From the NCBI RefSeq assembly GCF_000300235.2, contig NZ_CP004388.1, positions 1,035,501-1,099,500 of the forward strand: a stretch of DNA of 64,000 bases, read 5' to 3'. The notes below the pieces were generated by a model. The model ran no database searches. It was not told the origin of the DNA and saw only the letters and a list, made by a program, of their open reading frames with translations. The position numbers and the translations under genes are program-made. This document shows positions 1,867 through 30,029 of the stretch, piece after piece. The DNA is from Thalassospira xiamenensis M-5 = DSM 17429. Lineage in GTDB: Bacteria > Pseudomonadota > Alphaproteobacteria > Rhodospirillales > Thalassospiraceae. The stretch's first letter is position 1, and each line of letters begins with the position of its first letter.

Positions 1867-3708
1867 ATGACAGAACGGCAGAACCGCAAAGCGCGCCCGG
1901 TCCGTCCGGCCCGGAAGGTGGGTTTGGCGGCAAAGCGTGCGACGTCTGATCGGGGGCTTCCCGATGGAGCGCAGCGTGCTGCCGGTCGGAATGCGACCGG
2001 GCCGGGTGATGCCAATCCGGGGGATGCCAGGCCGGGTGATGCCAGGCCGTCGGGAGCAGACCAGACGGCGGCGAGATTTGGCCGGATGGCGAAGGAGCCG
2101 GTCGGCCGTCTTGGAGCAGGTGCTGGTGCTGGTGCGGGGACAGGCAGCAATGCCGGGACCGGAACCAAAGCCGGCGGGATTGCGATTGCCGATTTGCGGG
2201 CCCGGTTCCGCGCGGCGGTCGGGCAGAAGCAGGGCTGGGTCCGGCATTGGCAGGAATGTTACGAATTTGCCCTGCCGCAGCGCAATGGGGCAAGCGAGCA
2301 ACCGGGAGCATCCGGCGGGGTATCTGGTGGGGAAAAGAAGTTTGATCGGGTGTTTGATGCCACGGCCCCCGATGCGGTCGAGCAGCTTGCGGCAAGCCTG
2401 ATGGCGGAAATCACCCCGCCGAGTGGTGGCTGGTTCGCGTTTGAGCCGGGCGGCAATGTGGCGGATGCGGATCGGGACATTCTGACCGCGCGGCTGGCGC
2501 GCGCCGCAAGCATTTTGCAGGGGCATTTTGACCGGTCCAATTTCGCGGTCGAGATGCATCAGGCGTTTCTCGATCTGGTGACGGCGGGGACGGCGTGCCT
2601 TCGGCTTGAAGCGGATGATTTTTTAAGCCCGTCGGCGTTTCGGTTTGGCGCGGTGCCGCTGCGTGAACTGGCGTTCGAGGAACGCAGTGACGGCAGAATG
2701 GATGCGGTGTTTCGCAAGCTGTCGTTGACCCGTGACGAGATTGCAAGGCAATGGCCAGAGGCGCGGTTGCCCGATAGGGATCGGGATGAGGGGCAGAGCC
2801 CGAAACGATACGCGGTGGTCGAGGCGGTTCTGCCCGATCCGGGGGCGTTTGGCGGTTATCAGCTTTGCGTGTTTTTTGAGGATGGCGGGCAGGTTTCGGG
2901 TGGTCTGGCCGGCGAAGATGGGGTGATCCATCGGGACCGTTTTGAGGTGTCGCCCTATATCGCGTTTCGGTGGATGAAGGCACCGGGCGAGGTTTATGGC
3001 AGGTCGCCGGTGATGAAGGCGCTGCCCGATATCAAGACGGCGAACAAGGTGGTCGAGCTGGTGCTTAAAAACGCATCCATCGCGGTGACTGGCATCTGGC
3101 AGGCCGATGATGACGGGGTTTTGAACCCGGCGGCGATCCGGCTGGTGCCCGGAAGTATCATCCCGAAGGCGGTCGGGTCGGCGGGTTTGACGCCGCTTGA
3201 TGCGCCGGGGCGGTTTGATGTTTCTGATCTGGTGCTGTCCGATCTGCGTGATCGCATCCGGCGGTGCCTGTTGGCCGACCGGCTGGGGCAAAGTGACCAG
3301 CCGGGCATGACCGCGACCGAGGTTCTGGAACGGGCATCGGAAAATGCCCGGTTGCTGGGGGCGACCTATGGGCGGTTGCAGGCGGAACTGCTTTATCCGC
3401 TTATTCGCCGGGCGGTCCATATTCTGGTGCGGCGTGGGGAGCTGCCCGATATGCCGCTTGATGGCGATGTCGTGCAGTTGCGCCATAGCGCGCCATTGGC
3501 CCAGTTGCCCAAACGCGTACAGGCCGGGCAGGCGATGGATTGGCTGTCACGGATTGCGACGCTGGGGCCGGAGGCGCTGGGCGAGGTCGATATGCCGCAC
3601 ATGGTCCGCTGGCTTGCCGATCAGTTTGGCGTGCCGGACCATTTGCTCAGGCCGGTTTTGCCGGTTGAGGCAATGGTTGAGGCGGCGATGATGGAGGATG
3701 CACCATGA
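1867..3708 (+). CDS. Head-tail connector (podoviral portal protein)
   Basis: A 613-residue protein. From about residue 110 it follows the podoviral head-to-tail connecting protein family (T7 gp8-like): RARFRAAVGQKQGWVRHWQECYEFALPQ at the start of the conserved part, a central YGRSPVMKALPDIKTANK segment, and a C-terminal TATEVLERASEN...GRLQAELLYPLIRR region. It would form the dodecameric DNA portal. The first ~105 residues are a low-complexity extension with GDA(N/R)PGDARP repeats and a GAGAGAGTG stretch, which the family normally lacks. The stop overlaps the next gene (ATGA). Confidence 0.88.
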   Translation: MTERQNRKARPVRPARKVGLAAKRATSDRGLPDGAQRAAGRNATGPGDANPGDARPGDARPSGADQTAARFGRMAKEPVGRLGAGAGAGAGTGSNAGTGTKAGGIAIADLRARFRAAVGQKQGWVRHWQECYEFALPQRNGASEQPGASGGVSGGEKKFDRVFDATAPDAVEQLAASLMAEITPPSGGWFAFEPGGNVADADRDILTARLARAASILQGHFDRSNFAVEMHQAFLDLVTAGTACLRLEADDFLSPSAFRFGAVPLRELAFEERSDGRMDAVFRKLSLTRDEIARQWPEARLPDRDRDEGQSPKRYAVVEAVLPDPGAFGGYQLCVFFEDGGQVSGGLAGEDGVIHRDRFEVSPYIAFRWMKAPGEVYGRSPVMKALPDIKTANKVVELVLKNASIAVTGIWQADDDGVLNPAAIRLVPGSIIPKAVGSAGLTPLDAPGRFDVSDLVLSDLRDRIRRCLLADRLGQSDQPGMTATEVLERASENARLLGATYGRLQAELLYPLIRRAVHILVRRGELPDMPLDGDVVQLRHSAPLAQLPKRVQAGQAMDWLSRIATLGPEALGEVDMPHMVRWLADQFGVPDHLLRPVLPVEAMVEAAMMEDAP

Positions 3709-4325: not shown

Positions 4326-5036
4326 ATGACCATTGATCAGAACCCGGCGCGGCCAGAAGCCGGGCAGGGGGCGGAGGATAATCTGTTGCGTCCGGCCGAT
4401 GTGGCGGGCGGCGTGACTGAGGCGTTAGGCGTCGAGGCGGATGTGGTTTTCGATGCTGGCGTCTTGCCGGAAGGTGAATTTGACGCCGGTGAAGCCAGCG
4501 CGGCCCTTGACCCGGCCAGCATTCCCGAAACGCCGGACGGATACGAGATTGCGGTTGATGAGGTGTTGGGCGCGGTTGATCCAGCGGTAAATGCGCGCTT
4601 GCATGAAGCGGGATTTACCGGCGCACAGGCGCAGCTTGTTTATGATCTGGCGGCCGAGGTGATCGGGCCGTTAATTGGCGAGGTTGAGGGCGCAGGCAAA
4701 CGTGCCACGGATCGGGCGGCACTGGCGGCGGAATTTGGCGGGGCGGAAAACTGGAAACGGTTGGCACCGCGGATTGAGAAATGGGGGCGCGAGAACCTGC
4801 CCGAGGCGGCGTTTGAGGTTCTGTGCCAAACGGCAGACGGGGTGCGCAGCATTCATCGGTTGATGAGCGGCCGGGCGGAGCAGGGACTGGCGTCGGGGTC
4901 AGGCGCGGACGGGACAGGCGATTTGCGCCAAGATATCCGGGCCAAAATGAATGATCCGCGATACTGGCGCGACCGTGATCCGGGGATTGTCGCCGAGGTG
5001 CAGGCAGGTTTTGACCGCCTGCATGGCATTTCCTAG
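4326..5036 (+). CDS. Probable phage scaffold (capsid assembly) protein
   Basis: A 236-residue, very acidic protein between portal and capsid, the position of the T7 scaffold (gp9). The N-terminal third is disordered and Glu/Ala/Gly-rich. The middle is helical (VNARLHEAGFTGAQAQLVYDL) and there is an EFGGAENWKRLAPRIEKWG segment. The C-terminus has a DPRYWRDRDP...VQAGFDRLHG tail typical of podoviral scaffolds that contact the capsid. The call rests on position, composition and that tail. A GAGAGGGGAGAG purine run precedes the ATG. Confidence 0.7.
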   Translation: MTIDQNPARPEAGQGAEDNLLRPADVAGGVTEALGVEADVVFDAGVLPEGEFDAGEASAALDPASIPETPDGYEIAVDEVLGAVDPAVNARLHEAGFTGAQAQLVYDLAAEVIGPLIGEVEGAGKRATDRAALAAEFGGAENWKRLAPRIEKWGRENLPEAAFEVLCQTADGVRSIHRLMSGRAEQGLASGSGADGTGDLRQDIRAKMNDPRYWRDRDPGIVAEVQAGFDRLHGIS

Positions 5037-5833: not shown

Positions 5834-6063
5834 CGCAAACTCCAGATCATCAATTTTGCAACAGGTCCGGCCAAACCGGACAGATGTTCGATCCCCCGTG
5901 GCGATGGGGGTTCGAGCCGAAACACAAGACCACTCAACCATGACCGCAAGATGACCGGTTCGGGGTGCAAATAAGGCGGAATTGCCTGATTTGCTGCCGC
6001 TTCGGGATGCTGCATCGCGCGTTGCGGTCTTAAAATTGTTTATGGGCAGAAGGATATAAACCG

Positions 6064-6879
6064 ATGAGTGTCACGATTGATAAAAGCTTTGTGGATCATT
6101 TCCAGGCCGATGTGCATCAGGCCTATCAGCGGATGGGATCAAAGCTTCGTAATACGGTGCGGGTCAAAAACAGCGTCAAGGGGGCCAGCACGGTTTTCCA
6201 GAAAGTCGGCAAGGGCACGGCCACCACCAAGGCACGCCACGGCAAGGTGCCGGTGATGAATGCCGAACATGAGGCGGTGCGCTGTGACCTTCGCGATTAT
6301 TATGCCGGTGACTGGGTCGATGCGCTTGATGAGCTCAAGACCAATCACGATGAAAAGATGGTTCTGGCCAATGCCGGGGCCTATGCCCTTGGCCGCAAGA
6401 CCGATGATCTGATCATCAATGCGCTGGCAAGCGGCGAGGAGCTTATTGATCACAATGATACGGGGCTGACCCTTGGCAAGGTGATGGTGGCGTTTGAGGG
6501 CATGGGCAACCGCGATGTGCCCGATGACGGGCAGCGTTATGCGATTGTCGGCTGGAAACAATGGTCGCAGCTTTTGCAGATCAACGAATTTTCCAATGCT
6601 GACTATGTCGGCGATGATGATCTTCCGTGGAAGGGCACACAGGCCAAACGGTGGCTTGGCACGCTGTGGATGCCGCATTCGGGGCTTCCGGTGGCGGACG
6701 GCATCCGGTCGTGCTTCTGGTATCACAGAACGGCGATTGGCCATGCGATCGGGGCCGATGTGCAGTCCGACATTACCTGGCACGGCGATCATGCGGCGCA
6801 TTTCGTCAACAATTCCATGAGCCAGGGTGCGGTGCTTGTTGATGATGCCGGGGTGAGCTGCATCCGGGCCAAGGAATAG
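6064..6879 (+). CDS. Major capsid protein (podoviral)
   Basis: A 271-residue protein whose sequence fits the phage capsid family seen in epsilon15/BPP-1-like podoviruses: an N-terminal SFVDHFQADVHQAYQRMGSKLRNTVR helix region, a GKVPVMNAEHEAV segment, a long helix DDLIINALASG, and a C-terminal FVNNSMSQGAVLVDDAGV strand region. It forms the icosahedral shell. The AGAAGGA ribosome-binding site is well placed before the ATG. It follows the scaffold gene, with the reversed YafK-like gene between them, and leads into a small gene 44 bases on. Confidence 0.85.
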   Translation: MSVTIDKSFVDHFQADVHQAYQRMGSKLRNTVRVKNSVKGASTVFQKVGKGTATTKARHGKVPVMNAEHEAVRCDLRDYYAGDWVDALDELKTNHDEKMVLANAGAYALGRKTDDLIINALASGEELIDHNDTGLTLGKVMVAFEGMGNRDVPDDGQRYAIVGWKQWSQLLQINEFSNADYVGDDDLPWKGTQAKRWLGTLWMPHSGLPVADGIRSCFWYHRTAIGHAIGADVQSDITWHGDHAAHFVNNSMSQGAVLVDDAGVSCIRAKE

Positions 6880-6923
6880 GCCGCGGCTTCTGAAGATTTT
6901 TCATACAGATAACGGAGATCAAA

Positions 6924-7199
6924 ATGGCAGAAGGTTTTAAAGCCAGAAACCTGAGTGTTCTGGCCTATGCCAACGGCTTTACGCTTTGGCATTACATCAC
7001 CCCGGATTTCGCCGCCGATGTCGATACGGCGGGCTATTTCACCGATGCGCGCGACATGCTGCGGGTTGGTGACATCATCATCGCCAATACCAACCGCGAT
7101 GCCACCATGTCCGGCGGGCTGTTCGTCGTGGCGAGTTCGGGGGCTTTGGGCGTTGATGTCCGCGATATGACGGCGATTGGCAGTTCGAATACGGACTGA
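6924..7199 (+). CDS. Small head-associated phage protein
   Basis: A 91-residue protein (MAEGFKARNLSVLAYANGFTLWHY at the start, with an aspartate-rich middle and VRDMTAIGSSN near the end). Small proteins of this kind follow the capsid gene in BPP-1-like podoviruses and may be decoration or head-completion proteins; the exact role is unknown. It has an AACGGAG ribosome-binding site and lies in the same orientation as capsid. The next gene is the ferredoxin-lysozyme cargo, 72 bases downstream. Confidence 0.6.
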   Translation: MAEGFKARNLSVLAYANGFTLWHYITPDFAADVDTAGYFTDARDMLRVGDIIIANTNRDATMSGGLFVVASSGALGVDVRDMTAIGSSNTD

Positions 7200-7271
7200 T
7201 CGTCATAACTGTTCAGACGAAGTCTAATTTCCTCATATTCCAAGATATCCTCCCGAAAGGAAGAAGTATAA

Positions 7272-8132
7272 ATGAGCGAAAATGGTGTAAGCGGATATCG
7301 TGTAAGAGTTAATTATGGAGGGACAAGTTACGAATTTCACTGCCCCGAAGATGCCTACATCCTTGATACGGCTGAGGAAGTTGGTTTGATTCTGCCTTAT
7401 TCATGTCGGGCAGGGGCTTGCAGCACGTGTGCTTGCGGCGTGATATCCGGTTCGATTGATGACAGCGATCAGTCTTATCTTGACGACGAGCAGAGGCAGG
7501 CAGGTTTTTTCCTGTCTTGTGTGGCTTATCCCGGCTCTCATGTTGAGATCGTGGCTGGACAGGAAGATGCCGTAAATAACGGGGAAAATCCTCGATTGAC
7601 AGGTGGCGGAGCCCCAGTCTGGTTAGGCCCTAATCCTTACAGTGCCGATATTGAACTTGATGCCGTTGTTGTTTCCGAAGCCGGGGAAGAGTTTATCAAG
7701 GACCTAGAGGGCTATGTCAGCGAACCTTACAAGGTCGATGATGTCGGCAACTGGACTGTTGGTTATGGTCATGAATTGACCCAAGAAGAGTATGACAGCG
7801 GTGTTTACTCTTTTGTTTCAAGAGAGTTTGCCGAAACCTTGTTCGCTGACGATATTCTGATCGCTAAAGAGACGGTTGATCGATTCATCGCTAACAACAA
7901 TCCGAACATATCGCTCTCGCAAAGCCAGTATGATGCTTTGGCAAGCCTGGCTTTTAACTCTGGATATCCGGGGCGTTTTCCGAAGCTGAGTGAGGCTTTC
8001 GCTCAAGGAAATCACATTGGCGTCGCAAACGAATTCGGAGATATTACCAATAATGGGGACCAAGGGTTGATTAACCGACGAAATGCTGAGCAGGCCCTTT
8101 ATCTCTCGGAGGATTATTCAGGGATACCGTAG
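7272..8132 (+). CDS. Ferredoxin-lysozyme fusion, probable M-class (pectocin-like) bacteriocin
   Basis: A 286-residue protein with two domains. Residues 1-99 form a plant/cyanobacterial-type [2Fe-2S] ferredoxin with ligands C45, C50, C53 and C83 in the canonical CX4CX2CX29C spacing, and the PetF-like blocks [23 protein letters not shown] and [11 protein letters not shown] Gly/Pro-rich linker (about 100-138) leads to a GH24 T4-type lysozyme with catalytic E146, D156 and T162 (GNWTVGYGH) and the C-terminal [14 protein letters not shown] motif. There is no signal peptide. Pectocins of Pectobacterium pair such a ferredoxin with a peptidoglycan-attacking domain and enter cells through a ferredoxin receptor. 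An unusual endolysin is the alternative. The gene is AT-richer than the phage genes around it. The start has an AAGGAAGAAG ribosome-binding site. Confidence 0.85.
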
Positions 8133-8307
8133 GCATAAAATATGCATATGTTATCGCTCTGATGATGTCCTGATTTTGGATCATTTTCCTGCTTTGGTGT
8201 TTCAAAATCGAGGAGATCATTTGGGCTATTTGGTGTAGATTTTTCTTCTATAAGTTGTATCCTTGCGTGTTGTTATGTTTGCATAAAATGCTGCGAGGCT
8301 GTTTACG

Positions 8308-9039
8308 ATGTCTTTCACCAGAGTTTTCCTGATTGTGTCATTTTTCGTCTCTTGCGCAGCTTCCAGTTTGCAGGCGCAAACGGTATGTGACTCAGATATT
8401 CTGTCAAAAGTTGAAAGATATCGAGGGCAGATCCTGAACGGAAACTTGCCCGAACTGACAAAAAACATCCGGTTCCCGGTCCCCTTGATTTTTGCAGGGA
8501 GCATTCAGGAATGGGATCCGGTACGGCTTGAAAAGTATTCAAGGAGTATTTTTCATGCAGAATTCCTCCAAGAACTTACAAAAGCAGATACTTGTGATCT
8601 GGCGCAACAGATGAAGATTGATCCTGATAGTGGTCGTATCCAATCGCTCGTGCTGTTTTATGACGCAGAGGATGCGAAATACGCTCGAAGTGCAATTGGT
8701 TCAGTGCGGCAACTGAACCGCTTCATGGGGCTTGCAATAGAACGGATGAAAGCAAGAGACTATGTTGCTCTTTCGGAAATGTTTTCCTATCCGATCCGCG
8801 TGTGGGTGCACGAAGTCGAGACAGTTGTCGAAAATAAGAGGGACTTTGCTGCATTCGGGGATGCCATTATTGACGACCAATTTTTAAACATTGTGACCCA
8901 TGCCTATCAAACCGGAGACTATGGGCAACATCCGCGCGGATTGATGCTCAATAGTCGCGGCGACATTTGGGTGCGTTCTTACAGCGGGATGGCCCTTAAA
9001 TTTTCCGACTTTACAGGGAAGCCGGTGACGGTTCCCTAA
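8308..9039 (+). CDS. Exported protein, candidate immunity protein for the ferredoxin-lysozyme
   Basis: A 243-residue protein of no recognised family. Residues 1-23 are a signal peptide ending SLQA before QTV; an FVSC at 13-16 is a weak lipobox. The mature part seems to contain two related modules, about 35-90 (YRGQILNGNLPELTKNIRFPVPL) and 135-195 (MKARDYVALSEMFSYPIRVWV), each a helix pair leading into an (F/Y)P strand, somewhat like NTF2-fold proteins. It follows the ferredoxin-lysozyme gene in the same direction and shares its lower GC. It is followed by a terminator. A periplasmic location is what immunity to a peptidoglycan hydrolase needs, as for the pesticin immunity protein. The immunity role is inferred from context only. 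Confidence 0.6.
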   Translation: MSFTRVFLIVSFFVSCAASSLQAQTVCDSDILSKVERYRGQILNGNLPELTKNIRFPVPLIFAGSIQEWDPVRLEKYSRSIFHAEFLQELTKADTCDLAQQMKIDPDSGRIQSLVLFYDAEDAKYARSAIGSVRQLNRFMGLAIERMKARDYVALSEMFSYPIRVWVHEVETVVENKRDFAAFGDAIIDDQFLNIVTHAYQTGDYGQHPRGLMLNSRGDIWVRSYSGMALKFSDFTGKPVTVP

Positions 9040-9071
9040 ACACCTTCAAACAACAATACTCTTTCGTCCGA

Positions 9072-9095
9072 ACCCGGCAGTTCTTACTGCCGGGT
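9072..9095. repeat. Left direct repeat (duplicated terminator hairpin) of IS1182-type copy 1
   Basis: A hairpin with arms ACCCGGCAG and CTGCCGGGT around TTCTTA abuts the element here. The same 24 bases recur at 10601-10624, so they form a long target duplication. Confidence 0.85.
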
Positions 9096-10600
9096 CAGAC
9101 CGCTGACAAACCCCGTCATATTTTGGCGGGGTTTTTCTTTTAGAGGTGTTTGAAAGCTGGCTTGAGTGTGCCGAGGGGATTATCCCTCAGCGATTGGCCC
9201 CTTGGGGCCCAAAGCCAGGGCTATTTTCTTGATGTTTTGGGCGGCGGCGGCCAGCAGACATTGGCATTTGACATTGATCAGTCCCCGGAACCTTGCATAT
9301 CGATGACCGTGAAGCTGTTTGGCATCTGCAAAAGAGCGTTCGACCGTCTCTTTTCGGCGCTTGTAAACCCGCTTACCCCACTCTGTCAGACGATAGGCGT
9401 CAGCCCGGTCTCTGGCGTCTTGCCAGACATGGCGCGTGACAGTTTTTCGGTGGTGGGCATTGGCGGTACAGGAAGCCAGCACAGGACAGGTGCGGCATTT
9501 TTCCGGGTCGCTGTGATAATGGCGGTACCATTTCGGTCGGTTGTCGCATAAGACAGAAGCTGACCTTCGGGGCAGCGATAAGCATCACGTTCAGGGTCAT
9601 AAACGTATTTGCGTTTGGGGATGTAGCCTTCCCGAAGGTTCGGGCGGCGATAGCCCGTCACGCCAAGGATGTCACGATCTTCAAGGCCTTTGGCAATCGC
9701 GGCGGTCGCATAGCCCGCATCCAGTCCGACGGCGATAACATCAAGGTCAAAACGCTGCCTTTGTCGGTCAAGACGGTCGAGATAGGGAATGCTGTCATGC
9801 AGATTGGCCGGGGTGGCGTAACTGTCGGTAATGATCCCAAGCTTGCCATCGACCGTGCGGTGATCGAGATAGAAAAAGCCCTTGGGCTTGCCGTCGCGTA
9901 CCATATATCCGCTGTCGGGATCGGTTCGGCTGATCTTGGTTTCTTTCTCAACCGGCTGGCGTTCCTTGGCTTTGAGCGGCTTTTTCGCATGAGCCGCCCG
10001 GTCTTCCTCAATCGCCAGATCCAGATCATCCCAATAGGCCGCGCGCGATTTGGCAACCACTTCGCGGTCCCATTTGTTCTTGTTGGCATCGGCCTTCAAA
10101 TGCGTGCTGTCGGTATAGAGAACCTTACCATCCACCAGCCCGTGCCTGATCGCCTGCTCGACGATCTCGTCAAAAATATCCTGCGCAACACTGGCATCAT
10201 GATATCGACGCCGCCGGTTCTGCGACAGGGTCGAGGCATCAAAGACCTTGTCGGTCAGCTTGAGTTGCAAAAACCAGCGATAGGCGACATTGACCTCAAT
10301 CTCGCGCACAAGCTGGCGCTCCGAGCGCACGCCAAACAGATAGCCAATGAACAGCGCCTTAAACATCATCACCGGATCAAGGGCGGGACGGCCATTGTTC
10401 GCGCAGTACAAATCGGCCACGCGCGCATGGATAAAACTGAAATCGATCACGGCATCGATCTTACGAAGCAAATGATCGCTGGGGACCAAACTGTCGAGTG
10501 TCACCATCTCAAGTTCGGTTTGATGTGGGCTGGGTTTCTTAAGCATTCCCCATTGAATCAAAAATCCCCGCCAATGGCGAGGACTTTGTCAGCAGTCTGG
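9096..10600 (-). mobile_element. IS1182-type insertion sequence, copy 1 (defective)
   Basis: The ends carry the inverted repeat CAGAC(C/T)GCTGACAAA. Just inside each end is a hairpin that would act as a terminator (AAACCCC...GGGGTTT and AAGTCC...GGACTT). It is about 1504 bases, one base shorter than copy 2 at 62103-63608, to which it is otherwise almost identical. It is inserted in a terminator between the exported protein gene and the tail-collar gene, with the hairpin duplicated on both sides. Confidence 0.9.
9180..10546 (-). pseudogene. IS1182-family transposase, frameshifted
   Basis: The protein matches the 455-residue transposase of copy 2 until TDRNG, then shifts frame. At 9526-9527 the plus strand reads GGTACCATTT where copy 2 (reverse complement) reads GGTATCCATTT, so one base is missing. 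The C-terminal part continues in another frame (from LASCTANAHHRKT to AEG). Conserved blocks include SDHLLRKIDAVIDF, NNGRPALDPVMMFK, YTDSTHLKADANKNKW and KETVERSFADAKQLHG. Only one further substitution (synonymous) from copy 2 was noticed, so the insertion is recent. Copy 2 could still act on its ends in trans. Confidence 0.9.
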
Positions 10601-10632
10601 ACCCGGCAGTTCTTACTGCCGGGTTTTTTTTA
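10601..10632 (+). terminator. Terminator hairpin with T-tract; right direct repeat of IS copy 1
   Basis: The 24-base hairpin (arms ACCCGGCAG / CTGCCGGGT) is followed by an eight-T tract. This is presumably the original terminator of the 8308-9039 gene, now separated from it by the insertion. The left copy at 9072-9095 keeps the hairpin but not the T-tract. Confidence 0.85.
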
Positions 10633-10655
10633 TGTCCAAACCAAGGAGAATGTCC

Positions 10656-11267
10656 ATGCAGTGTAATACACCGGTTGCCAGTGAAGTTCTGAACGTTGTT
10701 CTGGCGGCCAATATCGCGCCGGATCGGCAGGATGACACCCAGCTTTTGCAGGCGATCAATGCCCTGATTGCCAATGGTGGTTCGGGTGGTAATGGTGGTA
10801 ATGGCGGTAATGGCGGCGGTTTCGGTGCCGAAATCGGCTCTGTCACCGCCTTTGCCATGCCGACCCCGCCGGAAGGCTGGCTGGTTTGTGACGGTTCGGC
10901 GGTTTCGCGGACCGACTATGCCGATCTTTATGCCGCGATTGGGACCGTCTGGGGCGATGGTGACCAGATTGCCACCTTTAACCTGCCGGACCTTCGCGGT
11001 GAGTTTGTGCGTGGTTTTGATGCCGGGCGTGGTGTGGATGCGGATCGCGTGTTTGCGTCTGGTCAGCTTGACGAATTCAAAACACATTCTCACGGTATTG
11101 AGACTTGGGGCGTTAACACGGCGATTGCTGGGCAGGTACATATGGGGAATGGATCGCCGTTCCAAAATGTGCCCACCAGTGAGACGGGTGGAGATGAAAC
11201 CCGCCCGCGCAACGTCGCGATGACCTATGCGATCAAGGCGTTTTATTCGGTGGCGGCTTCGGCCTGA
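10656..11267 (+). CDS. Phage tail collar-domain protein
   Basis: About 203 residues. An N-terminal helical part ends in a glycine/asparagine linker (GGNGGNGGNGGG). A collar domain follows: EIGSVTAFAMPTPPEGWLVCDGSAVSR, YADLYAAIG, FNLPDLRGEFVRGFDAGRG, the DEFKTHSHG metal-binding-like His pair, and ETRPRNVAMTYAIKA at the end. Such proteins are distal tail or fibre components. I chose the ATG at 10656 because AGGAG lies seven bases upstream; in-frame ATGs at 10632 and 10650 have no spacing. The IS insertion just upstream cuts it off from the preceding transcript. Confidence 0.8.
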   Translation: MQCNTPVASEVLNVVLAANIAPDRQDDTQLLQAINALIANGGSGGNGGNGGNGGGFGAEIGSVTAFAMPTPPEGWLVCDGSAVSRTDYADLYAAIGTVWGDGDQIATFNLPDLRGEFVRGFDAGRGVDADRVFASGQLDEFKTHSHGIETWGVNTAIAGQVHMGNGSPFQNVPTSETGGDETRPRNVAMTYAIKAFYSVAASA

Positions 11268-13736: not shown

Positions 13737-14214
13737 ATCAGTGATTGAACAGCATGGCTCATCTGCTCCGGTCAATATTGAGCAGATGATACGTGATCTG
13801 GGCATTGAGCTTGATAAAGAGGCCAAGCTTTCGCCAGAAATTTCTGGACAGATTGAAATGCTTGAGAACGATACGTACAAGATTTCTGCCAATGGTGATC
13901 ATCACTATTATCGTCGCAGATTTACTATGGCGCATGAACTGGCTCACTATATTCTGCATCGCGACCTAATCGGACGTGGTTTGGATGACAACCAGATGTA
14001 TCGTAGTACCGTTGCTGGTAATTTCTATAACCCCCGTGTTCAGCCATCGCACGAGATTGAAGCAAATCAGTTGGCTGCGGATTTGTTGGTGCCGGGTAAG
14101 GTGCTTCGCAAGCTTTGGGAGAGCGGCGAGAGAAATCTAGAGAAACTCGCCAAACAGTTTCAGGTGTCTAAGAGTGCGATGGAAATTCGACTGAAGACTC
14201 TGAATCTTAAATAA
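13723..14214 (+). CDS. ImmA/IrrE-family metallopeptidase
   Basis: A 163-residue zinc peptidase. The HEXXH motif is at H71-E72-x-x-H75 (MAHELAHYILH) and the third ligand is E113 in SHEIEANQLAADLLVP. A C-terminal helical region (LEKLAKQFQVSKSAMEIRLKTL) is typical of the family. ImmA proteins cleave phage or mobile-element repressors; IrrE relatives cut stress regulators. There is no XRE repressor next to it; instead it overlaps an unusual membrane protein gene. The start at 13723 is set by AGGAGG five bases upstream. Low GC and a terminator downstream indicate a self-contained cargo cassette between tail genes. Confidence 0.85.
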   Translation: MTTVKSVIEQHGSSAPVNIEQMIRDLGIELDKEAKLSPEISGQIEMLENDTYKISANGDHHYYRRRFTMAHELAHYILHRDLIGRGLDDNQMYRSTVAGNFYNPRVQPSHEIEANQLAADLLVPGKVLRKLWESGERNLEKLAKQFQVSKSAMEIRLKTLNLK

Positions 14215-14288: not shown

Positions 14289-14858
14289 ATGGCGTTAAGC
14301 GACATCGCACTTTGTGCGCGCGCATTGGTGATGATCGGGGCGGCACCGATTGTTTCGTTCGAGGATGACACGGCCGAGGCGGAGGTGGCGGGAATGCTGT
14401 ATCCGGCCATTCGGGACGGGATGCTGGCGGCTTATCCGTGGCGGTTTGCCGCGCGTGGGGCGTGGCTGGCGCGGAGGGATAGTGAGGACGTTTTGGGCGC
14501 TGGCGAGGGCATGTTTGTCCTGCCCGGTGATTTTATCCGGTTGCTGTCGCTTGAGACGGATGGCGGGGCGGTGCCGGAGTTTGAGCTGGTGCAGGGGGCG
14601 GTGAGGTGCGCGGCGGATCGGGCGTATCTGCGCTATGTCGGGCGGATGGCGGAGGGGGCGTTTCCGGCGTTTTTTGATCTGGCGCTGATCACACGCCTTG
14701 CGGCGGAATTTTGTGTGCCGCTGACCGAAAGTACGTCGCGGGCGGAGTATCTGTTTAAACGTGCCGAGGAACAGTTTCGGAGTGCCCGACTGGCCGATGC
14801 GCAGCAATCAACCCCGCGGGCGATTGGGGATTTTACCCTGATCGGGGCGCGGGGGTAA
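14289..14858 (+). CDS. Tail tubular protein A (T7 gp11-like)
   Basis: A 189-residue protein. MALSDIALCARALVMIGA at the start, DTAEAEVAGMLYPAIRDGMLAAYPWRFA, a LPGDFIRLLSL segment and the AFFDLALITRLAAEFCVPLTES ending are characteristic of podoviral tail adaptor/tubular A proteins that dock to the portal. The gene order (tubular A, then nozzle) matches T7. It begins 20 bases after the cargo terminator, so its promoter must lie within or read through the cargo region. Confidence 0.82.
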   Translation: MALSDIALCARALVMIGAAPIVSFEDDTAEAEVAGMLYPAIRDGMLAAYPWRFAARGAWLARRDSEDVLGAGEGMFVLPGDFIRLLSLETDGGAVPEFELVQGAVRCAADRAYLRYVGRMAEGAFPAFFDLALITRLAAEFCVPLTESTSRAEYLFKRAEEQFRSARLADAQQSTPRAIGDFTLIGARG

Positions 14859-14888: not shown

Positions 14889-16820
14889 ATGGCGCGCAGG
14901 GTTTTGGAAAAGACGACATTTTCGACCGGTGAACTGGCCCCGGAATTGTGGGGGCGCTCAGACCTTAATGCCTATGGCAATGGGGCGGCGCGGTTGCGCA
15001 ATGTGTTTATTGAACCGAGCGGCGGGGTGCGCAGGCGGCCCGGTATTGCGTTGATTGATGCGTTATCCGGCCCGGTGCGGTTGATCGCGTTCGAGTTCAA
15101 TACCGAGCAGACCTATCTGCTGGTGTTTGGGGATTATCAGGGCACGGTTTATCGCGATGGGGTGGCGATTGTCGGGTTTGAAACGCCGTTTGGGGTGGCG
15201 CACCATGCGCTTCTGAACTGGACGCAAAGTGCCGATACGCTGCTTGTCACCCACCCGGAGGTCGAACCGATGCGCCTGACGCGAAAGGCATCGGTTGATG
15301 GAGTTGGTGTTTGGGAAATGACCAACTGGGCGTGGCGGGAAACGGCGGTGAAGCGGTTTCAGCCATACTATAAATTCGGTGATCCTGCGGTCAGCATCAC
15401 ACCATCGGGCACAGGTGGCGCTGGCGGCACGATCAGCATCACGGCCAGTTCGGCCCTTTTTGAGGCCGGGCATGTCGGGACGCGCTGGCGCATTCAGGGG
15501 ATCGAGGGGGAGATTGCCGGGGTTTCGAGTGCGACACTGGCAACGATTGCGTTGCAAGAGGCCCTGCCCGATGCCAGCACGACACAGGATTTTGAGGAAC
15601 AGGTGTTTTCGCCGGTTCGTGGTTGGCCACGCAGCGTGACGTTTCATCAGGATCGGATGGTGATTGGTGGATCGCGCGATTTGCCCAACCGGTTGTGGAT
15701 GTCGAAATCGGGGGATCTGTTCAATTTCGATCTGGGCGAGGGGCTGGATGACGAGGCGATTGAATTTGCCCTGCTGGCCGATCAGGTCAATGCGATTACC
15801 GGCATTTTCGCCGGACGCCATTTGCAGGTTTTCACCAGCGGATCGGAATGGATGGTGACGGGCGACCCGTTAACACCGGCCAATATCCAGGTCACGCGAC
15901 AGACGCGGATTGGCAGCCGGGCGGATCGGACGGTGCCGCTGGTCAATGTCGATGGCGCGACGATCTTTGCCGCGCGAAGCGGCCGGGAATTGCGTGAATT
16001 CCTGTTCACCGATGTCGAGCAGGCTTATGGGGCGGCGGATTTGGCATTGTTGTCGCGCCATCTGGTGCAAAGCCCGGTTGATCAGGCGTTTGATGCCGAT
16101 CATCGGCTTTTGCATGTGGTGATGGGCGATGGCAGCCTTGGCACATTGACACTTTATCGCAGCGAGGCGATCACCGCCTGGTCGGCGCAAAGTGTTGAGG
16201 GTGCGGCATTTCGCGCTGTCGCGGTGGCGGGCGGGCAGGTTTACCTTTGCCTTGAGAGGGCTGGGCAATTTTACCTTGGCCGGTTTGATGACGCCTGCGG
16301 GCTTGATCTTTCGATCACCGCAGAATTGGCCGAGGGCGAAAAACCGCGCCGTCATTGGGGCGCGCTGGATGATCTGGAGGGGGGGACCTTGGCCGTATGG
16401 GCCGATGGTGTGCTTTACCGCGATATCATGGTTTCGGGGGGGACGATCAGCCTGCCCGACGCGGTGTCAAAGGTCGTGGCCGGATTGCCCTTTACCCATG
16501 AAATTGCCGCTTTGCCACCGGCCGGATCGGATGGCACGCGGGCGCATGAGGGCAATGCGTTGCGGCTTGTGTCGGTGACATTCCGGGTGCAGCAGACCGC
16601 GCAGTTGCGTGTTGATACCGGGCGGGGATTTCGCGATGTGGCGCTTGGTAGAGGACGGAGCGAAGACGCGGCTTATAGCGGTGATGTGAGCTTGCGTGCC
16701 CTTGGCTGGCGGCGCGGCAGTGCCGGGCGGGACAATGATGGATTATGGCGGATCGCCGGGGATTTTCCCCGGCCTTTTTTATTGCTGGGGGTCGCCAGCG
16801 AATTGGGGGTGAATGACTGA
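14889..16820 (+). CDS. Tail nozzle / tubular protein B-like protein
   Basis: A 643-residue protein beginning MARRVLEKTTFSTGELAPELWGRSDLNAYGNGA, then ALRNVFIEP-like and GGVRRRPG segments. This is the signature of the podoviral nozzle/stabilisation proteins. The middle holds beta-propeller-like repeats, with blocks such as WPRSVTFHQDRMVIGGSRDLPNRLW, FTSGSEWMVTGDPLTPANI and RSGRELREFLF. It would form the end of the short tail. Its stop overlaps the next start by one base. Confidence 0.85.
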   Translation: MARRVLEKTTFSTGELAPELWGRSDLNAYGNGAARLRNVFIEPSGGVRRRPGIALIDALSGPVRLIAFEFNTEQTYLLVFGDYQGTVYRDGVAIVGFETPFGVAHHALLNWTQSADTLLVTHPEVEPMRLTRKASVDGVGVWEMTNWAWRETAVKRFQPYYKFGDPAVSITPSGTGGAGGTISITASSALFEAGHVGTRWRIQGIEGEIAGVSSATLATIALQEALPDASTTQDFEEQVFSPVRGWPRSVTFHQDRMVIGGSRDLPNRLWMSKSGDLFNFDLGEGLDDEAIEFALLADQVNAITGIFAGRHLQVFTSGSEWMVTGDPLTPANIQVTRQTRIGSRADRTVPLVNVDGATIFAARSGRELREFLFTDVEQAYGAADLALLSRHLVQSPVDQAFDADHRLLHVVMGDGSLGTLTLYRSEAITAWSAQSVEGAAFRAVAVAGGQVYLCLERAGQFYLGRFDDACGLDLSITAELAEGEKPRRHWGALDDLEGGTLAVWADGVLYRDIMVSGGTISLPDAVSKVVAGLPFTHEIAALPPAGSDGTRAHEGNALRLVSVTFRVQQTAQLRVDTGRGFRDVALGRGRSEDAAYSGDVSLRALGWRRGSAGRDNDGLWRIAGDFPRPFLLLGVASELGVND

Positions 16821-19486: not shown

Positions 19487-20599
19487 ATGGGCATGCGATA
19501 TGCGCCATTGGAAAGCTGTCTGCGCGTGGGGCGCGCCAGCCCCAAGATTGTACGCGGATCAGACGGGATTTTGGCCGAGATTGGCGTGGATATGCCGGGC
19601 CATGATCATGATGGGCTGGGCCGGGCGCGGGGGCTTTTGATCGAGGGGGCGGCGAGCAATCTGCTGCGCTATTCCACAACGTTTGCCAATCCGCTTTGGG
19701 AGAAGGATGCGGGGGTGAGTGTGGCGACGTCCGGGGTTGCGGCCCCGGATGGGAGTATGAGTGCCACACGCCTTGACCTTCCGGGTGGGGCGGGTGGGCT
19801 TTTTCAGAGGGTCGATGACCTGATCGCGGGGGCGATATACAGCTTTGGTATCTGGGCGCGGGCGGTTTCGGGCACGGCGGAGATTACGCTGGGCGGGGTG
19901 GATGGGGCGTCAAACCATGCGGTGAGCCTTGATGAAAGCTGGCAACGGGTGGGCTTTGCCGAGGTCGCATCGGGCACCAGCCGATACCCAAAAATCAGCA
20001 CCGCGATTTCGGGCAATCCGGCATCGATCCTGATCTGGAATGCGCAGCTTGAGGCCGGGCCGGTTTTGACCAGCGATCTGATCAGCAAGGGTATTCCCGC
20101 CGCACGCGCGATGGATGATGTGATGCTGGATCCGGGCGACTGGTTCCGGGGCGCAACCGGGCGGGGCACGTTTGTTTTTGATCTGGAATTGCCAGCGGCC
20201 TGGGATGGGATTTGGCGGATCGTGCAGATGCATTCGGGGAACCTTAACGATGATCATCTTGATCTGGGCTATGACAGTGCGGCGGATCAGTTGCGGGTTT
20301 CATTGCGCAAGGGTGGCGCGCCGATCATCACGCAGTCGCTTTATGGCGGGCTTGTTCCCGGAAGCCGCACGCGGATCGTGCTGGCGTGGGCGGATGATGG
20401 GGTGGCGGTGGCGAAGGCGGGCGCGATTTTGAAATCACCCGGCGGCTTTGCCATGCCACGCAGTTTCAACACGATCCGGGTGGGGAGTTATGCCGGGCAA
20501 AGCGGGGCGTTGAACGGGCATTTGCGCGGGGTTTCCTACTGGCCGGAACGGTTGGCGGATGATCGCCTGATCGCCCTTTCGGCAAATCCCGAAAATTAA
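19487..20599 (+). CDS. Phage tail spike or fibre-associated beta-sandwich protein
   Basis: A 370-residue protein. The N-terminal part resembles phage head-spike or fibre linkers: RGLLIEGAASNLLRYSTTFANPLWEK, then a carbohydrate-binding-like region (LFQRVDDLIAGAIYSFGIWARAVSG, IWNAQLEAGPVLTSDLI). The C-terminal half looks like a concanavalin/LamG-type domain (GTFVFDLELPAAWDG, RSFNTIRVGSYAGQSGALNGHLRGVSYWPERL). It probably recognises cell-surface glycans together with the preceding fibre. ACGGAG lies upstream of the ATG at 19487. Confidence 0.7.
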   Translation: MGMRYAPLESCLRVGRASPKIVRGSDGILAEIGVDMPGHDHDGLGRARGLLIEGAASNLLRYSTTFANPLWEKDAGVSVATSGVAAPDGSMSATRLDLPGGAGGLFQRVDDLIAGAIYSFGIWARAVSGTAEITLGGVDGASNHAVSLDESWQRVGFAEVASGTSRYPKISTAISGNPASILIWNAQLEAGPVLTSDLISKGIPAARAMDDVMLDPGDWFRGATGRGTFVFDLELPAAWDGIWRIVQMHSGNLNDDHLDLGYDSAADQLRVSLRKGGAPIITQSLYGGLVPGSRTRIVLAWADDGVAVAKAGAILKSPGGFAMPRSFNTIRVGSYAGQSGALNGHLRGVSYWPERLADDRLIALSANPEN

Positions 20600-26210: not shown

Positions 26211-26245
26211 AGGGTGCAGCGGGTTGGATGGTGAGGGGATCGGGC

Positions 26246-27817
26246 ATGGCGCAGGTGATTGATCGGGGGCGGGCGAGATGTGCCGGGTTTGGCGAATTTG
26301 TCTGGATCTGGAATGCGATGATGGGGCTTGGGATGCCGGGGCATCATCGCGATATGGCGGCGTGGCTTGAGGCGTGCTGGACGGCGGGGAAGGGGCAGCT
26401 TTTGCTGATGGCGTTTCGCAATTCGGGCAAATCAACACTGGTCGGGCTGTTTTGCGCGTGGCTTTTGTATCGCGATGCGGATTTGCGCATTCTGGTGCTG
26501 GCGGCCGATCTGGGACTGGCGAAAAAGATGGTTCGCAATGTCAAGCGCGTGATCGAACGCCATCCGTTGCTGGCGGGGCTTCTGCCCGAAAAGCGGGTCG
26601 ATTGGGGCACGCAGCGTTTTACGGTCGAGCGACCGGGCGTATTGCGGGATCCGTCGATGCAGGCGGCGGGAATTGGCGGCAATATCACCGGGTCGCGCGC
26701 CGATGTGGTGATTTGCGATGATGTCGAGGTGCCCAAAAACAGCGATAGCGCCCATAAACGCGCCGAATTGCGCGAGAAACTGGGCGAGATTGCCTATGTG
26801 CTGTCGCCCGATGGCACGCAGATTTATGTCGGAACCCCACATAGCTATTATTCGATCTATGCCGATGAAATCCGGGCCGAAACCGGGGAGGCTGCACCGT
26901 TTCTGGCGGGGTTTGAGCGGTTCTGCCTGCCGATCCTGGATGAACAGGGGCAATCGAACTGGCCAGACCGGTTTCCGATCACCAAGATCGAGGAAATCCG
27001 CACCCATACCGGGGAGCGGAAATTTGCCAGCCAGATGATGCTGGAGATGCTGGCCCCCAGTGACGGCATCCTCGACCCGGCCCGGTTGCACCGTTATGGC
27101 GATGATGCGGTGATCGAGCAGGCCAACGGGGTGCTTCGGCTGTCGATTGCGGGGCGGCGGATGGTGGCGGGCGCATGCCATTTTGATCCGAGTTTTGGGG
27201 CCGGTGGGGGCTTACCTGGTGGCGCATATGGGAGCGCAAAGGGGGGTGATGGCGCGGTGATTGCGTGCGTTTATGTCTGCGAGCGGGGGGAATACTGGCT
27301 GCATGATATGGCGTGGCTGACATTTGATCCGGCACGCCTGCATGAGGCCGATGAAGCCAGCCAGATTTGTGCCAAGGCCGCAGCATTCATCCGGCAGAAC
27401 CATTTGCCGTCGGTGCGGGTCGAGACCAATGGCGTCGGGCGGTTTTTGCCCAATATCCTGCGTCGCGCCTTAAAGCAGGCCGACTGGGCGGCAAGTGTGG
27501 TGGAGCATCACGAGGCGAAAAACAAGGACGCGCGGATCGAGGATGCATTTGGGGCGGTGTTGAGTGCGGGGTTGCTGCATGCGCATGCGCGTATCTGGCA
27601 AACGCCGTTCATCCGTGAAATGCGCGAATGGCGACCCGGCGAGGGACGGGGGCGCGGGAAGGGCAAAGCAGGCCAGCATGATGACGGGCTTGATGCGGTG
27701 GCGGGCTGCCTGATCCATGAGCCGGTGCGCCTGCCGCGGGTGGAAAAAGCCCGGTCCGGGGGCGACTGGCGGCCTGCCGGGGCGGCTTTTTCGGCGCGAA
27801 ACGGGTTTCAGCCCTAA
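26246..27817 (+). CDS. Large terminase subunit (TerL)
   Basis: About 523 residues. The ATPase has a Walker A at about 57-63 (FRNSGKS) and a Walker B VVICDDVE at about 154-161. The nuclease half has an early acidic CHFDPSFG, a GDGAVIACVYVC strand and KNKDARIEDAFGAVLSAG, ending HDDGLDAVAGCL. This matches podoviral (T7 gp19-like) terminases that package DNA through the portal. I prefer the ATG at 26246 over 26228, since GAGGGG lies about eight bases upstream. It lies far downstream of the portal, as in T7, but is separated from the fibre genes by cargo. Confidence 0.85.
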   Translation: MAQVIDRGRARCAGFGEFVWIWNAMMGLGMPGHHRDMAAWLEACWTAGKGQLLLMAFRNSGKSTLVGLFCAWLLYRDADLRILVLAADLGLAKKMVRNVKRVIERHPLLAGLLPEKRVDWGTQRFTVERPGVLRDPSMQAAGIGGNITGSRADVVICDDVEVPKNSDSAHKRAELREKLGEIAYVLSPDGTQIYVGTPHSYYSIYADEIRAETGEAAPFLAGFERFCLPILDEQGQSNWPDRFPITKIEEIRTHTGERKFASQMMLEMLAPSDGILDPARLHRYGDDAVIEQANGVLRLSIAGRRMVAGACHFDPSFGAGGGLPGGAYGSAKGGDGAVIACVYVCERGEYWLHDMAWLTFDPARLHEADEASQICAKAAAFIRQNHLPSVRVETNGVGRFLPNILRRALKQADWAASVVEHHEAKNKDARIEDAFGAVLSAGLLHAHARIWQTPFIREMREWRPGEGRGRGKGKAGQHDDGLDAVAGCLIHEPVRLPRVEKARSGGDWRPAGAAFSARNGFQP

Positions 27818-28726: not shown

Positions 28727-29020
28727 ATGAGCGGACCGGTTGATCTGATCTGGTGGATTACGGCGGTGGAAATTCCCGCCGTGGCGGGGCTTTTCTGGCT
28801 GAACTGGCGGATGCGGGGCGAGCTTTCGGCGCGGCTGGAAAGCCAGCGCGAGGGTCATGACGCGGAGATGATCGCGCTTCGCGATGGCTTGGCGGACTTC
28901 AAGCTCGATGTGGCGCGAAACTACGTTTCGATCCCGTACCTCAAGGATATTGAAAAACGCCTGACCGCGCATCTGCTGCGGATCGAGGCGAAGCTTGATC
29001 ACAATGTACCGGCAGCGTGA
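28727..29020 (+). CDS. Small membrane protein of the lysis module
   Basis: A 97-residue protein. One N-terminal membrane segment (LIWWITAVEIPAVAGLFWLNW) is followed by a cytoplasmic or periplasmic coiled coil (ARLESQREGHDAEMIALRDGLADF). It could be a spanin-like, anti-holin or holin-type protein; I do not recognise the family. CAGGAGG before the ATG at 28727 sets the start. It precedes the cell-wall hydrolase by 32 bases. Confidence 0.6.
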   Translation: MSGPVDLIWWITAVEIPAVAGLFWLNWRMRGELSARLESQREGHDAEMIALRDGLADFKLDVARNYVSIPYLKDIEKRLTAHLLRIEAKLDHNVPAA

Positions 29021-29052
29021 GGCCGGTTTTGAACCCTAGAAAGGAAACAGCG

Positions 29053-29508
29053 ATGAATGATGTTCTGATGATGGAAGCCGTTGCCGACCCGCAGGAATTG
29101 CCGGTCGCCGAGGTGCTGGCAAGGACGCTTTATGGTGAGGCGCGCGGCGAGGGTTTGCCGGGGATCGAGGCGGTGGCCTGCGTGATCCTGAACCGGGTGG
29201 CATTTGCCAAAGCGCGCGGGCGCTATTGGTGGGGCAATACGGTGTCGCAGGTGTGCCTGAAACCGGGGCAGTTTTCCTGCTGGAACGCGGGCGATCCGAA
29301 CCGGGTGAAGTTGCTTAAGCTCAGTGCGCGCGACCCGGCATACCGGCTGTGCAAACGGGTGGCGACACGGGCATTGGCCGGGGAGATTGCCGACATGACC
29401 CAGGGGGCGACGCATTATCACACCCATGCGGTTGATCCCTATTGGGCGCGCGGACAGGTGCCGGTGGCCGAGATTGGCGGGCATCTGTTTTTCAAAAACA
29501 TCGGTTAA
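29053..29508 (+). CDS. SleB-type cell-wall hydrolase (phage endolysin)
   Basis: A 151-residue Hydrolase_2 protein. LARTLYGEARGEGLPGIEAVACVILNRV carries the catalytic glutamate. FSCWNAGDPNR, GATHYHTHAVDPYWA and VAEIGGHLFFKN complete the family pattern. It cleaves peptidoglycan glycan strands. There is no signal peptide, so export depends on the holin encoded 20 bases downstream. Alphaproteobacterial phages and gene transfer agents use this hydrolase-holin pair. It makes the ferredoxin-lysozyme unnecessary as an endolysin. Confidence 0.85.
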   Translation: MNDVLMMEAVADPQELPVAEVLARTLYGEARGEGLPGIEAVACVILNRVAFAKARGRYWWGNTVSQVCLKPGQFSCWNAGDPNRVKLLKLSARDPAYRLCKRVATRALAGEIADMTQGATHYHTHAVDPYWARGQVPVAEIGGHLFFKNIG

Positions 29509-29528
29509 TTCAAACGGGGAGGTATCAC

Positions 29529-30029
29529 ATGATACCAGCATTACTGGCGCAGATCGGCCTGCCGCTTTTGATGAAGGCGGTCGGGGCGGGGCTTGAAACC
29601 ATTGATCATCCGGTCGCGAAAACCGCGGCCGAGGGGCTTAAACAGGTGGGGGATGCGGTGACCAAGGGCGATGTCACGCCCGCCCAGATCATCGAGGCCA
29701 ACCGCCATTCCGAACGCATGGCGGAAATCGAGCTTTCGCGGGACCGGAGCGTTCTGGCAACCGTCAACCGCACCATCCGGGCCGAGGTACAAAGCGAGGA
29801 TGCGTTTGTGCGCCGCTGGCGACCGAGCTTTGGCTATGCGGTGGCACTCACCTGGATCATGACCATGGGATCAATTGCGGCCGCCATCATCTTAACGCCG
29901 CTTCAGGCCCCGGCGATTATCGCGGCATTGGTCAATACCAGCCCGATCTGGGGCATTGCGCTGGGCGTTTTGGGGGTCAGTGTGGTGAAGCGGAGTGCGG
30001 ATAAGAAGATCGGGGAGGGTGGCGCGTGA
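29529..30029 (+). CDS. Holin, GTA-type three-TM family
   Basis: A 166-residue protein. IGLPLLMKAVGAGLETI at the N-terminus, GDVTPAQIIEANRHSERMAEIELS, AEVQSEDAFVRRWRPSFGYAVALTW, then two C-terminal membrane segments (MGSIAAAIILTPLQAPAI and SPIWGIALGVLGVSVV). This fits the three-TM holin family first linked to gene transfer agent release. GGAGG before the ATG sets the start. A decayed copy of its C-terminus lies 600 bases downstream. Confidence 0.82.
   Translation: MIPALLAQIGLPLLMKAVGAGLETIDHPVAKTAAEGLKQVGDAVTKGDVTPAQIIEANRHSERMAEIELSRDRSVLATVNRTIRAEVQSEDAFVRRWRPSFGYAVALTWIMTMGSIAAAIILTPLQAPAIIAALVNTSPIWGIALGVLGVSVVKRSADKKIGEGGA

Follow-up and report, generated by a model that had tools for sequence, protein, structure and literature searches.

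A ferredoxin-lysozyme fusion gene in a gene-transfer-agent-like element of Thalassospira xiamenensis, a candidate ferredoxin-guided bacteriocin

This study concerns a stretch of 64,000 nucleotides from Thalassospira xiamenensis M-5 = DSM 17429 (Alphaproteobacteria, Rhodospirillales; contig NZ_CP004388.1, positions 1,035,501 to 1,099,500), hereafter called the window, and within it a single open reading frame (ORF) that joins a plant-type [2Fe-2S] ferredoxin to a GH24 lysozyme. The next gene encodes a protein of 243 residues that starts like an exported one, and both genes lie inside a phage-derived element that looks like a gene transfer agent (GTA). All coordinates are collected in Table 1.

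The fusion gene and its neighbor

At the level of domain organization, the 286-residue product is characterized by two modules, both recognized well over the Pfam cut-offs: an Fer2 domain at residues 17-87 (E 2.5e-19) and a Phage_lysozyme domain (PF00959) at residues 143-273 (E 1.1e-18). The ferredoxin belongs to the plant subfamily, since the NCBIfam model fdx_plant (TIGR02008) scores 113.5 bits over residues 9-101 against a cut-off of 81.15. All ligand cysteines (C45, C50, C53 and C83) are there, accompanied by an additional C24 and C55. The lysozyme part matches phrog_7 (E 5.1e-26) and keeps the catalytic residues E146, D156 and T162. Aligned with four phage lysozymes (APSE-4, phi29, Cd1 and AP1), it shows invariant glutamate and threonine columns; D156, three places ahead of a glycine, matches the aspartate of Cd1 and AP1, a position at which APSE-4 and phi29 differ. 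On the basis of this homology, the C-terminal domain is predicted to be of the peptidoglycan-attacking type. BgtA, the model of a Bartonella GTA endolysin, also matches (4.8e-12), at 45.9 bits and hence below its cut-off of 315. Only eight residues precede the ferredoxin match, and the N-terminus, as judged by eye, is not hydrophobic. The Pfam and PHROG scans predict neither a collar nor any other tail-attachment domain in the fusion. The protein cluster to which the fusion belongs in the searched collection represents nine member sequences; these are possibly copies of one record and so provide a weak argument against an assembly artefact.

The fusion gene has a GC content of 48.4% (46% at third codon positions, GC3) and the gene that follows 47.1% (GC3 49%), compared with 59.4% for the remainder of the element. 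The fusion starts 72 bases past the preceding 91-residue gene with no terminator-like site between them, and it lacks the hairpin leader found ahead of other cassettes at this place; read-through from the capsid genes is therefore likely. Terminator-like sites were about as frequent in the scanned sequence (5) as in shuffled sequences (4.7).

The 243-residue protein, encoded 175 bases further on, begins with MSFTRVFLIVSFFVSCAASSLQAQ, a Sec-like signal peptide as judged by eye, and has two cysteines past this signal. No matches were found in Pfam, PHROG, NCBIfam, PADLOC or PDB. Removal of the signal left a single sub-threshold Pfam match (E 0.24), a comparison with ten Pectobacterium loci yielded nothing significant (best E 0.15), and the two halves of the protein show no significant similarity to each other. 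Among 29 genomes of the same genus, it occurs in one.

An earlier note on this DNA, made from the letters and their ORFs, had reported much of this arrangement, and it is borne out: Pfam, TIGR02008 and all the named residues confirm the fusion, the following gene encodes a Sec-like start and has no family in the libraries scanned, and both genes are AT-richer than their surroundings. They also sit, as described there, with the capsid gene upstream and tail genes downstream, and the separate lysis genes placed at 29-30 kb are a SleB-type hydrolase (PF07486) and a GTA-type holin (PF11351).

Table 1. Features of the locus, with positions counted from the first letter of the window.
Feature	Position	Strand	Evidence or remark
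T7-like, GTA-like element	1386-30029		
Head-to-tail connector (portal)	1867..3708	+	PF12236 2.5e-121
T7-type capsid assembly (scaffold) protein	4326..5036	+	PF05396 1.9e-8
Major capsid protein	6064..6879	+	PF19821 1.3e-79
Conserved 91-aa protein, left edge of variable slot	6924..7199	+	phrog_18004; 28/28 relatives' loci
Segment breaking collinearity with relative G008: fusion, 243-aa ORF, insertion sequence (IS)	7203..10599	.	
Ferredoxin-GH24 lysozyme fusion, 286 aa	7272..8132	+	single ORF, no visible signal peptide
Plant-type [2Fe-2S] ferredoxin domain, residues 9-101	7296..7574	+	TIGR02008, Fer2, cysteine positions
Linker, residues 102-133, about 32 residues	7575..7670	+	interval between domain matches
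GH24 lysozyme domain, residues 134-284	7671..8123	+	PF00959, phrog_7, alignment with four phage GH24
243-aa orphan, candidate periplasmic immunity protein; Sec-like signal at residues 1-24 by eye	8308..9039	+	
IS element, 15-nt inverted repeats 93% complementary, in leader hairpin of collar cassette	9096..10599	.	ends approximate
IS transposase (DUF772)	9386..10561	-	PF05598 1.7e-25
Tail collar protein, right edge of slot	10632..11267	+	PF07484 2.1e-23; 23/28 relatives' loci
Tail protein, tail tubular A type	14289..14858	+	phrog_394 1e-33
Tail protein, tail tubular B type	14889..16820	+	phrog_376 1.9e-120
Spike/fibre protein, GTA_spike_fiber domain	19487..20599	+	NF048003 5.7e-33
T7-type terminase large subunit	26228..27817	+	NF033889 2.2e-125
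SleB-type cell wall hydrolase (lysis enzyme of the element)	29017..29508	+	PF07486 1.4e-20
GTA_holin_3TM holin	29442..30029	+	PF11351 1.1e-14

Phyletic distribution of the fusion

The fusion is strikingly rare. A match is found in 27 of 29 genomes of the genus, and only the genome of origin encodes the fusion; the others hit the ferredoxin part of the query. Neither the fusion nor the 243-residue protein has a match in the corresponding loci of the 28 relatives, which represent sister species. Ferredoxin-GH24 fusions elsewhere, which the earlier note had envisaged in other alphaproteobacterial prophages, were not found at the thresholds used: across the order, one of 317 genomes matched at E 1e-15, namely the producer's own, and across the class four of 385 at E 1e-12, i.e. 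the same genome and three that match in the ferredoxin part alone. Likewise, the phage and plasmid searches gave matches in 586 and 796 records, respectively, none covering 80% of the fusion query. The longest plasmid match extends over 79% of it at 23.8% identity, and the proteins concerned are annotated as Acinetobacter 2Fe-2S proteins, not as lysozyme.

Of 867 candidates from a protein search with the fusion, 27 reached E 0.001, as did 20 of 42 with the ferredoxin part alone; by their Pfam annotation, both domains occur together only in the fusion's own cluster, with the proviso that this search depends on five-residue words in common and can miss relatives. A first scan of viral contigs contained no fusion. 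In a second, at least 589 stretches encode related ferredoxins, and the 80 that were kept, together with seven other loci, show no match to the lysozyme part at E 1e-3. In Pectobacterium, 22 of 25 genomes matched at E 1e-10, each match lying in either the ferredoxin or the lysozyme part and none spanning both. Among open-licence papers on ferredoxin together with bacteriocin, lysozyme, alphaproteobacteria or carotovoricin, no title or abstract opening describes the fusion, and in the literature searched we found the plan of a ferredoxin-guided toxin described only for plant-rotting Pectobacterium.

Comparison with the pectocins and origin of the ferredoxin

The closest known counterpart is pectocin P, which consists of a ferredoxin and a pesticin-like domain (PMC3302902) and whose recombinant form, a ferredoxin-lysozyme bacteriocin, was active against 17 of 19 Pectobacterium strains when iron was limiting (PMC4671253). 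In both proteins a plant-type ferredoxin forms the N-terminus with no preceding signal peptide or translocation domain, and a lysozyme-type peptidoglycan enzyme forms the C-terminus; by analogy, the logic of delivery would be alike. The enzymes differ, however: pectocin P has the Pesticin domain (PF16754), whereas the fusion lacks it and carries the phage GH24 domain PF00959 instead. Moreover, the fusion is alphaproteobacterial, is found inside a phage-derived element and stands beside a gene for an exported protein. The analogy with pectocins drawn by the earlier note fits and is closer than it had claimed, given that pectocin P itself was omitted there.

Seven Pectobacterium loci encode pectocins, three of the M type (L231, L232, L249) and four of the P type (L235, L236, L238, L239). 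According to Pfam, L231 combines Fer2 with Colicin_M, and L236, L238 and L239 combine Fer2 with Pesticin; L232, L235 and L249 are assigned to their type by likeness. The C-terminal part of the fusion has no significant match to those of pectocin P (at best E 0.36 with BLAST, and 0.05 with phmmer in a set of nine sequences), but it does match a Pectobacterium phage-type GH24 lysozyme at 1.6e-21. As the catalytic domains are of different families, ferredoxin and enzyme were probably joined independently of pectocin P. A simple transfer of pectocin P is ruled out for the catalytic domain on the same two grounds. Pectocins M1 and M2 share the N-terminal ferredoxin as delivery module and carry Colicin_M in place of a muramidase (L231). 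The enzymes that a ferredoxin delivers in Pectobacterium are modular, being either Colicin_M or Pesticin, and the phage GH24 domain would be a third choice.

What is more difficult is to trace the ferredoxin itself, which forms a long branch with no firm placement in the trees. The ferredoxins of pectocins and related Pectobacterium proteins form a clade (support 100/99) near the plant ferredoxins, and the window's ferredoxin falls outside it, although a tree that places it inside is not rejected (approximately unbiased, AU, test, p-AU 0.297). The AU p-values are 0.618 for its union with stand-alone Pectobacterium ferredoxins (L225-L230) and 0.357 for that with the ferredoxin-like proteins of tailocins; when it is joined to the stand-alone group, the log-likelihood exceeds that of the free tree by 4.0 units. 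The trees omit redundant and outlying rows, comprising roughly half of the viral ones in one tree and some three quarters in two, several eukaryotic rows (two trees), and three of seven tailocin rows plus short-match rows (the pectocin-clade tree). In BLAST comparisons the viral-contig ferredoxins score highest (115 bits), and the stand-alone Pectobacterium group reaches up to 108. This group differs from the fusion in that its members are 97-100 residues long and have no lysozyme. All six, however, have both C24 and C55 in common with the window's ferredoxin. C24 is common in general, while C55 is present in only one of 114 other ferredoxin rows, and this rarity points to the stand-alone Pectobacterium ferredoxins. 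Their pool is a plausible, if not demonstrated, source of the ferredoxin domain.

The surrounding element

The earlier note had placed the two genes inside a prophage. An ordinary prophage is ruled out by a single copy in each of 29 genomes, by a conserved gene order, and by conserved flanks in the four relatives checked. The capsid protein has exactly one match in each of the 29 genomes of the genus, with 77-99% identity in the 28 relatives. The order of scaffold, capsid and 91-residue genes is kept in all 28 of their loci and the portal in 27; in the remaining one (L051), the contig begins within the scaffold gene. Of these loci, 22 match the terminase, 17 the SleB hydrolase and 16 the holin, counts that may be too low because 26 of the 28 were fetched as stretches of about 20 kb and might stop short of these genes; G008 has all three. 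The chromosomal DNA on either side is collinear with that of G008 and also conserved at both ends in G004, G010 and G018, i.e. in all four relatives checked. The fixed place is shown for the genus: in G239, the one genome taken from another family of the order, the element matches, but its flanks do not (blastn, 20 kb). Across the order, the capsid has matches at E 1e-10 in 155 of 317 genomes, representing 50 of 115 genera, and 144 of the 155 carry it just once. Genes for the element's own replication or integration were not found among the scanned ORFs of 1.8-30 kb, several of which have no family while some ORFs lie outside the scan.

A single copy, a genus-wide fixed place and a wide spread are the pattern expected of a gene transfer agent, and the element looks like an old, phage-derived, podovirus-like one that the genus has kept. 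Like RcGTA and BaGTA, it is phage-derived, vertically kept within the genus and equipped with GTA_spike_fiber and GTA_holin domains; in contrast to them, its connector, tail tubes and terminase are of the podovirus (T7-like) kind. Neither its capsid nor its portal is matched by an NCBIfam model. The Rhodospirillales row of a published GTA survey seems to report zero RcGTA-like clusters (PMC6821227), and among the open-licence articles on gene transfer agents that were listed, no title or abstract opening describes the element. It possibly represents an undescribed family of podovirus-type GTAs.

The fusion pair occupies a variable slot of this element. Between the 91-residue gene and the best collar match (or, failing that, the tail tube gene), 16 of the 28 relatives have extra genes and 12 have none; the extra genes are mostly collar-like or glycine-rich, as judged by eye. 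The slot gene of L064 (6776-7870) encodes an Mtd-type receptor-binding protein (mtd_2nd, 1.3e-20), and that of L068 looks similar. Genes of this type occur in diversity-generating phages. Cassettes in the slot tend to open with a GC-rich hairpin and a T-run (strict pattern in 18 of 28 loci, T-run in 16). In the window, two copies of such a hairpin, 30 nucleotides long and 93% alike (9066-9095 and 10595-10624), flank the IS element; as it stands between two copies of the collar leader, the IS arrived next to the fusion pair. Its insertion into a terminator-like hairpin may cut transcription into the downstream collar and tail genes.

Three further genes of the element deserve mention. The minus-strand gene at 5033-5941, between scaffold and capsid, resembles the peptidoglycan amidase LdtF/DpaA weakly (5e-18, but 65 bits where the cut-off is 365); it is matched in the loci of 17 of the 28 relatives, with three of these matches being short. 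A GIY-YIG nuclease-type gene lies beside the terminase (25617-26183, minus strand), and an IrrE/M78 peptidase-type gene at 13693-14214 (plus strand).

A candidate ferredoxin-guided bacteriocin

By analogy with pectocin P, we favor, at what we regard as even chances, the reading of the fusion as a muramidase bacteriocin that is released by lysis and guided by its ferredoxin. The steps that we infer, from expression and release through receptor and killing to immunity, would be as follows. The fusion gene would be co-expressed with the capsid genes of the GTA-like element; its product, having no visible signal peptide, would remain in the cytoplasm until the producer is lysed by SleB hydrolase and holin. 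Once released, it would bind a ferredoxin-importing TonB-dependent receptor of a competitor by its ferredoxin domain, and the GH24 domain, carried into the periplasm, would cut the peptidoglycan there. In surviving kin, the exported 243-residue protein may block the enzyme in the periplasm. In favor of this reading are the pectocin-like order of the two domains in one ORF with all key residues kept, the presence of the separate lysis genes in relatives that lack the fusion, its occurrence in one of 29 genomes within a segment that is not collinear with G008, and the following gene, which has an export signal and a similarly deviant composition.

Several results weigh against this reading. The earlier note had suggested looking for FusA-like receptors, and none was recognized in the producer genome, where FusA itself was not a query. 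This genome has 12 matches to the TonB-dependent receptor family PF00593 and three to M16 proteases, with over 300 kb separating the nearest pair. With a charge of -17, the lysozyme domain is strongly acidic, and this might impede its acting freely on peptidoglycan. As for regulation, one promoter-like site was found, on the minus strand, compared with 3.7 in shuffles, and none stands out upstream of the fusion; LexA-type boxes number 54 against a mean of 44.75, a value reached by 10 of 100 shuffles, with none in 5755-8441. The 243-residue protein matches itself alone in the protein collection and has no known immunity relative, and in three pectocin P loci examined by eye (L259-L261) no exported immunity gene stands next to the bacteriocin. 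Finally, the slot holds receptor-binding tail genes in relatives, a setting that would also fit a component of the particle.

With regard to the receptor, FusA is the receptor of pectocin M1, with extracellular loops modelled to grasp the ferredoxin (PMC5095587), and FusA relatives are scattered across the Proteobacteria, including clusters of marine bacteria (PMC6793856). Five of the 12 producer receptors were compared with PDB: no chain listed is named a ferredoxin receptor, two are called only 'TonB-dependent receptor', and L099 has no match. Three of 18 Pectobacterium receptors, treated in the same way, match receptors other than FusA. A ferredoxin receptor could exist in target cells only. 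The best PDB match of one producer receptor (L094, near 2.99 Mb on contig C1) is the solved pesticin receptor, at 2.8e-19.

The strongest rival, although we consider it unlikely, is that the fusion is a component of the GTA-like particle, a receptor-binding and wall-piercing protein whose ferredoxin would serve as ligand and whose lysozyme would open the wall for DNA. It owes this rank to the slot, in which the extra tail genes of 16 relatives include the Mtd-type gene of L064, and to the ferredoxin-like gene, with ligand cysteines replaced, among the tail genes of a sheathed-tail cluster of Pectobacterium; a ferredoxin is reported from the carotovoricin tailocin cluster (PMC6963963). The missing tail-attachment domain speaks against it, as do the persistence of the collar gene downstream of the fusion, the absence of the hairpin leader seen ahead of collar cassettes, and the fact that a soluble bacteriocin of identical layout is known.

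Somewhat less probable again is an auxiliary endolysin, in which GH24 would contribute to lysis of the producer and the ferredoxin would be a solubility, redox-sensing or regulatory module. A GH24 domain of phage endolysin type (phrog_7), the weak BgtA match and a place within a phage-derived cluster would all agree with such a role. Yet the element already has its hydrolase-holin pair, as have many relatives; since these relatives lack the fusion, it is not needed for lysis there. Moreover, the fusion is missing from all 28 loci, and no ferredoxin-bearing endolysin is found among the phage and plasmid records with matches, none of which reaches 80% coverage of the query. The weakest alternative, a recent non-functional chimera that arose by cassette exchange and hitch-hikes beside the IS, would suit the occurrence in one of 29 genomes, the adjoining IS and the long branch of the ferredoxin, but is improbable in view of the open frame, the intact ligand cysteines and catalytic triad, and a plausible exported partner.

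The role of the 243-residue protein has to be judged separately. That it is a periplasmic immunity protein is a guess from adjacency, export signal and composition. Pesticin and its immunity protein Pim offer a parallel, namely a lysozyme-type toxin countered in the periplasm; Pim differs in that the 243-residue protein has no match in Pfam, NCBIfam or PDB. Pesticin has its own part for a different receptor. Whatever the fusion does, the neighbor might also be unrelated to it, as just another exported moron, a view that in our estimate falls slightly short of an even chance: the 175-base distance, the missing homologs and the lack of a recognizable inhibitor family favor it, while the atypical composition and inserted segment that both genes have in common, and an N-terminus that would export the protein as a periplasmic immunity protein requires, stand against it.

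Returning to the bacteriocin, a more far-reaching proposal is that a vertically inherited, podovirus-derived, GTA-like element acquired the ferredoxin-guided muramidase as a weapon. The lysate of the minority of cells that burst to set particles free would then transfer DNA to kin and, by way of ferredoxin importers, poison non-kin, while a new immunity protein in the periplasm would mark kin. We put this forward tentatively and consider it more doubtful than the bacteriocin itself. If true, a DNA-transfer element directed at kin would be tied to a toxin directed at non-kin at a single locus, which bears on the question of what makes cells retain GTA-like elements whose lysis is costly. The bacteriocin, if confirmed, would be the first toxin guided by a ferredoxin that the searches made reached outside Pectobacterium, and its enzyme belongs to another family; a third catalytic domain on the same modular plan would mean that such toxins are readily assembled. 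Ferredoxin piracy, and its abuse by toxins, would then reach beyond plant pathogens: an alphaproteobacterium, probably marine, would use a ferredoxin passport, which points to unseen importers where cyanobacterial or algal ferredoxin is plentiful.

Other ferredoxin-type genes in Pectobacterium

The ferredoxin-like protein of the carotovoricin tailocin resembles the fusion in being encoded within a phage-derived killing cluster, but differs in that no enzyme is attached and the four ligand cysteines are replaced in all seven sequences (L077, L233, L237, L240, L241, L246, L248), by serine or glycine, aspartate, serine and aspartate. Its gene lies between the tail tube and tail chaperone genes of the sheathed-tail cluster, as observed in L008 (the locus of L077) and, by eye, in L262 (that of L233). 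The passages of PMC6963963 on this cluster report the ferredoxin and make no mention of the lost cysteines. The protein would be a ferredoxin mimic that carries no metal, within a particle that kills.

Another arrangement is seen in L253, L254, L256 and L258, where a stand-alone ferredoxin with an extra cysteine forms an operon with a protein of about 225 residues that has a twin-arginine-like start; the same operon also holds a small exported cysteine-containing protein and a protein of 83 residues.

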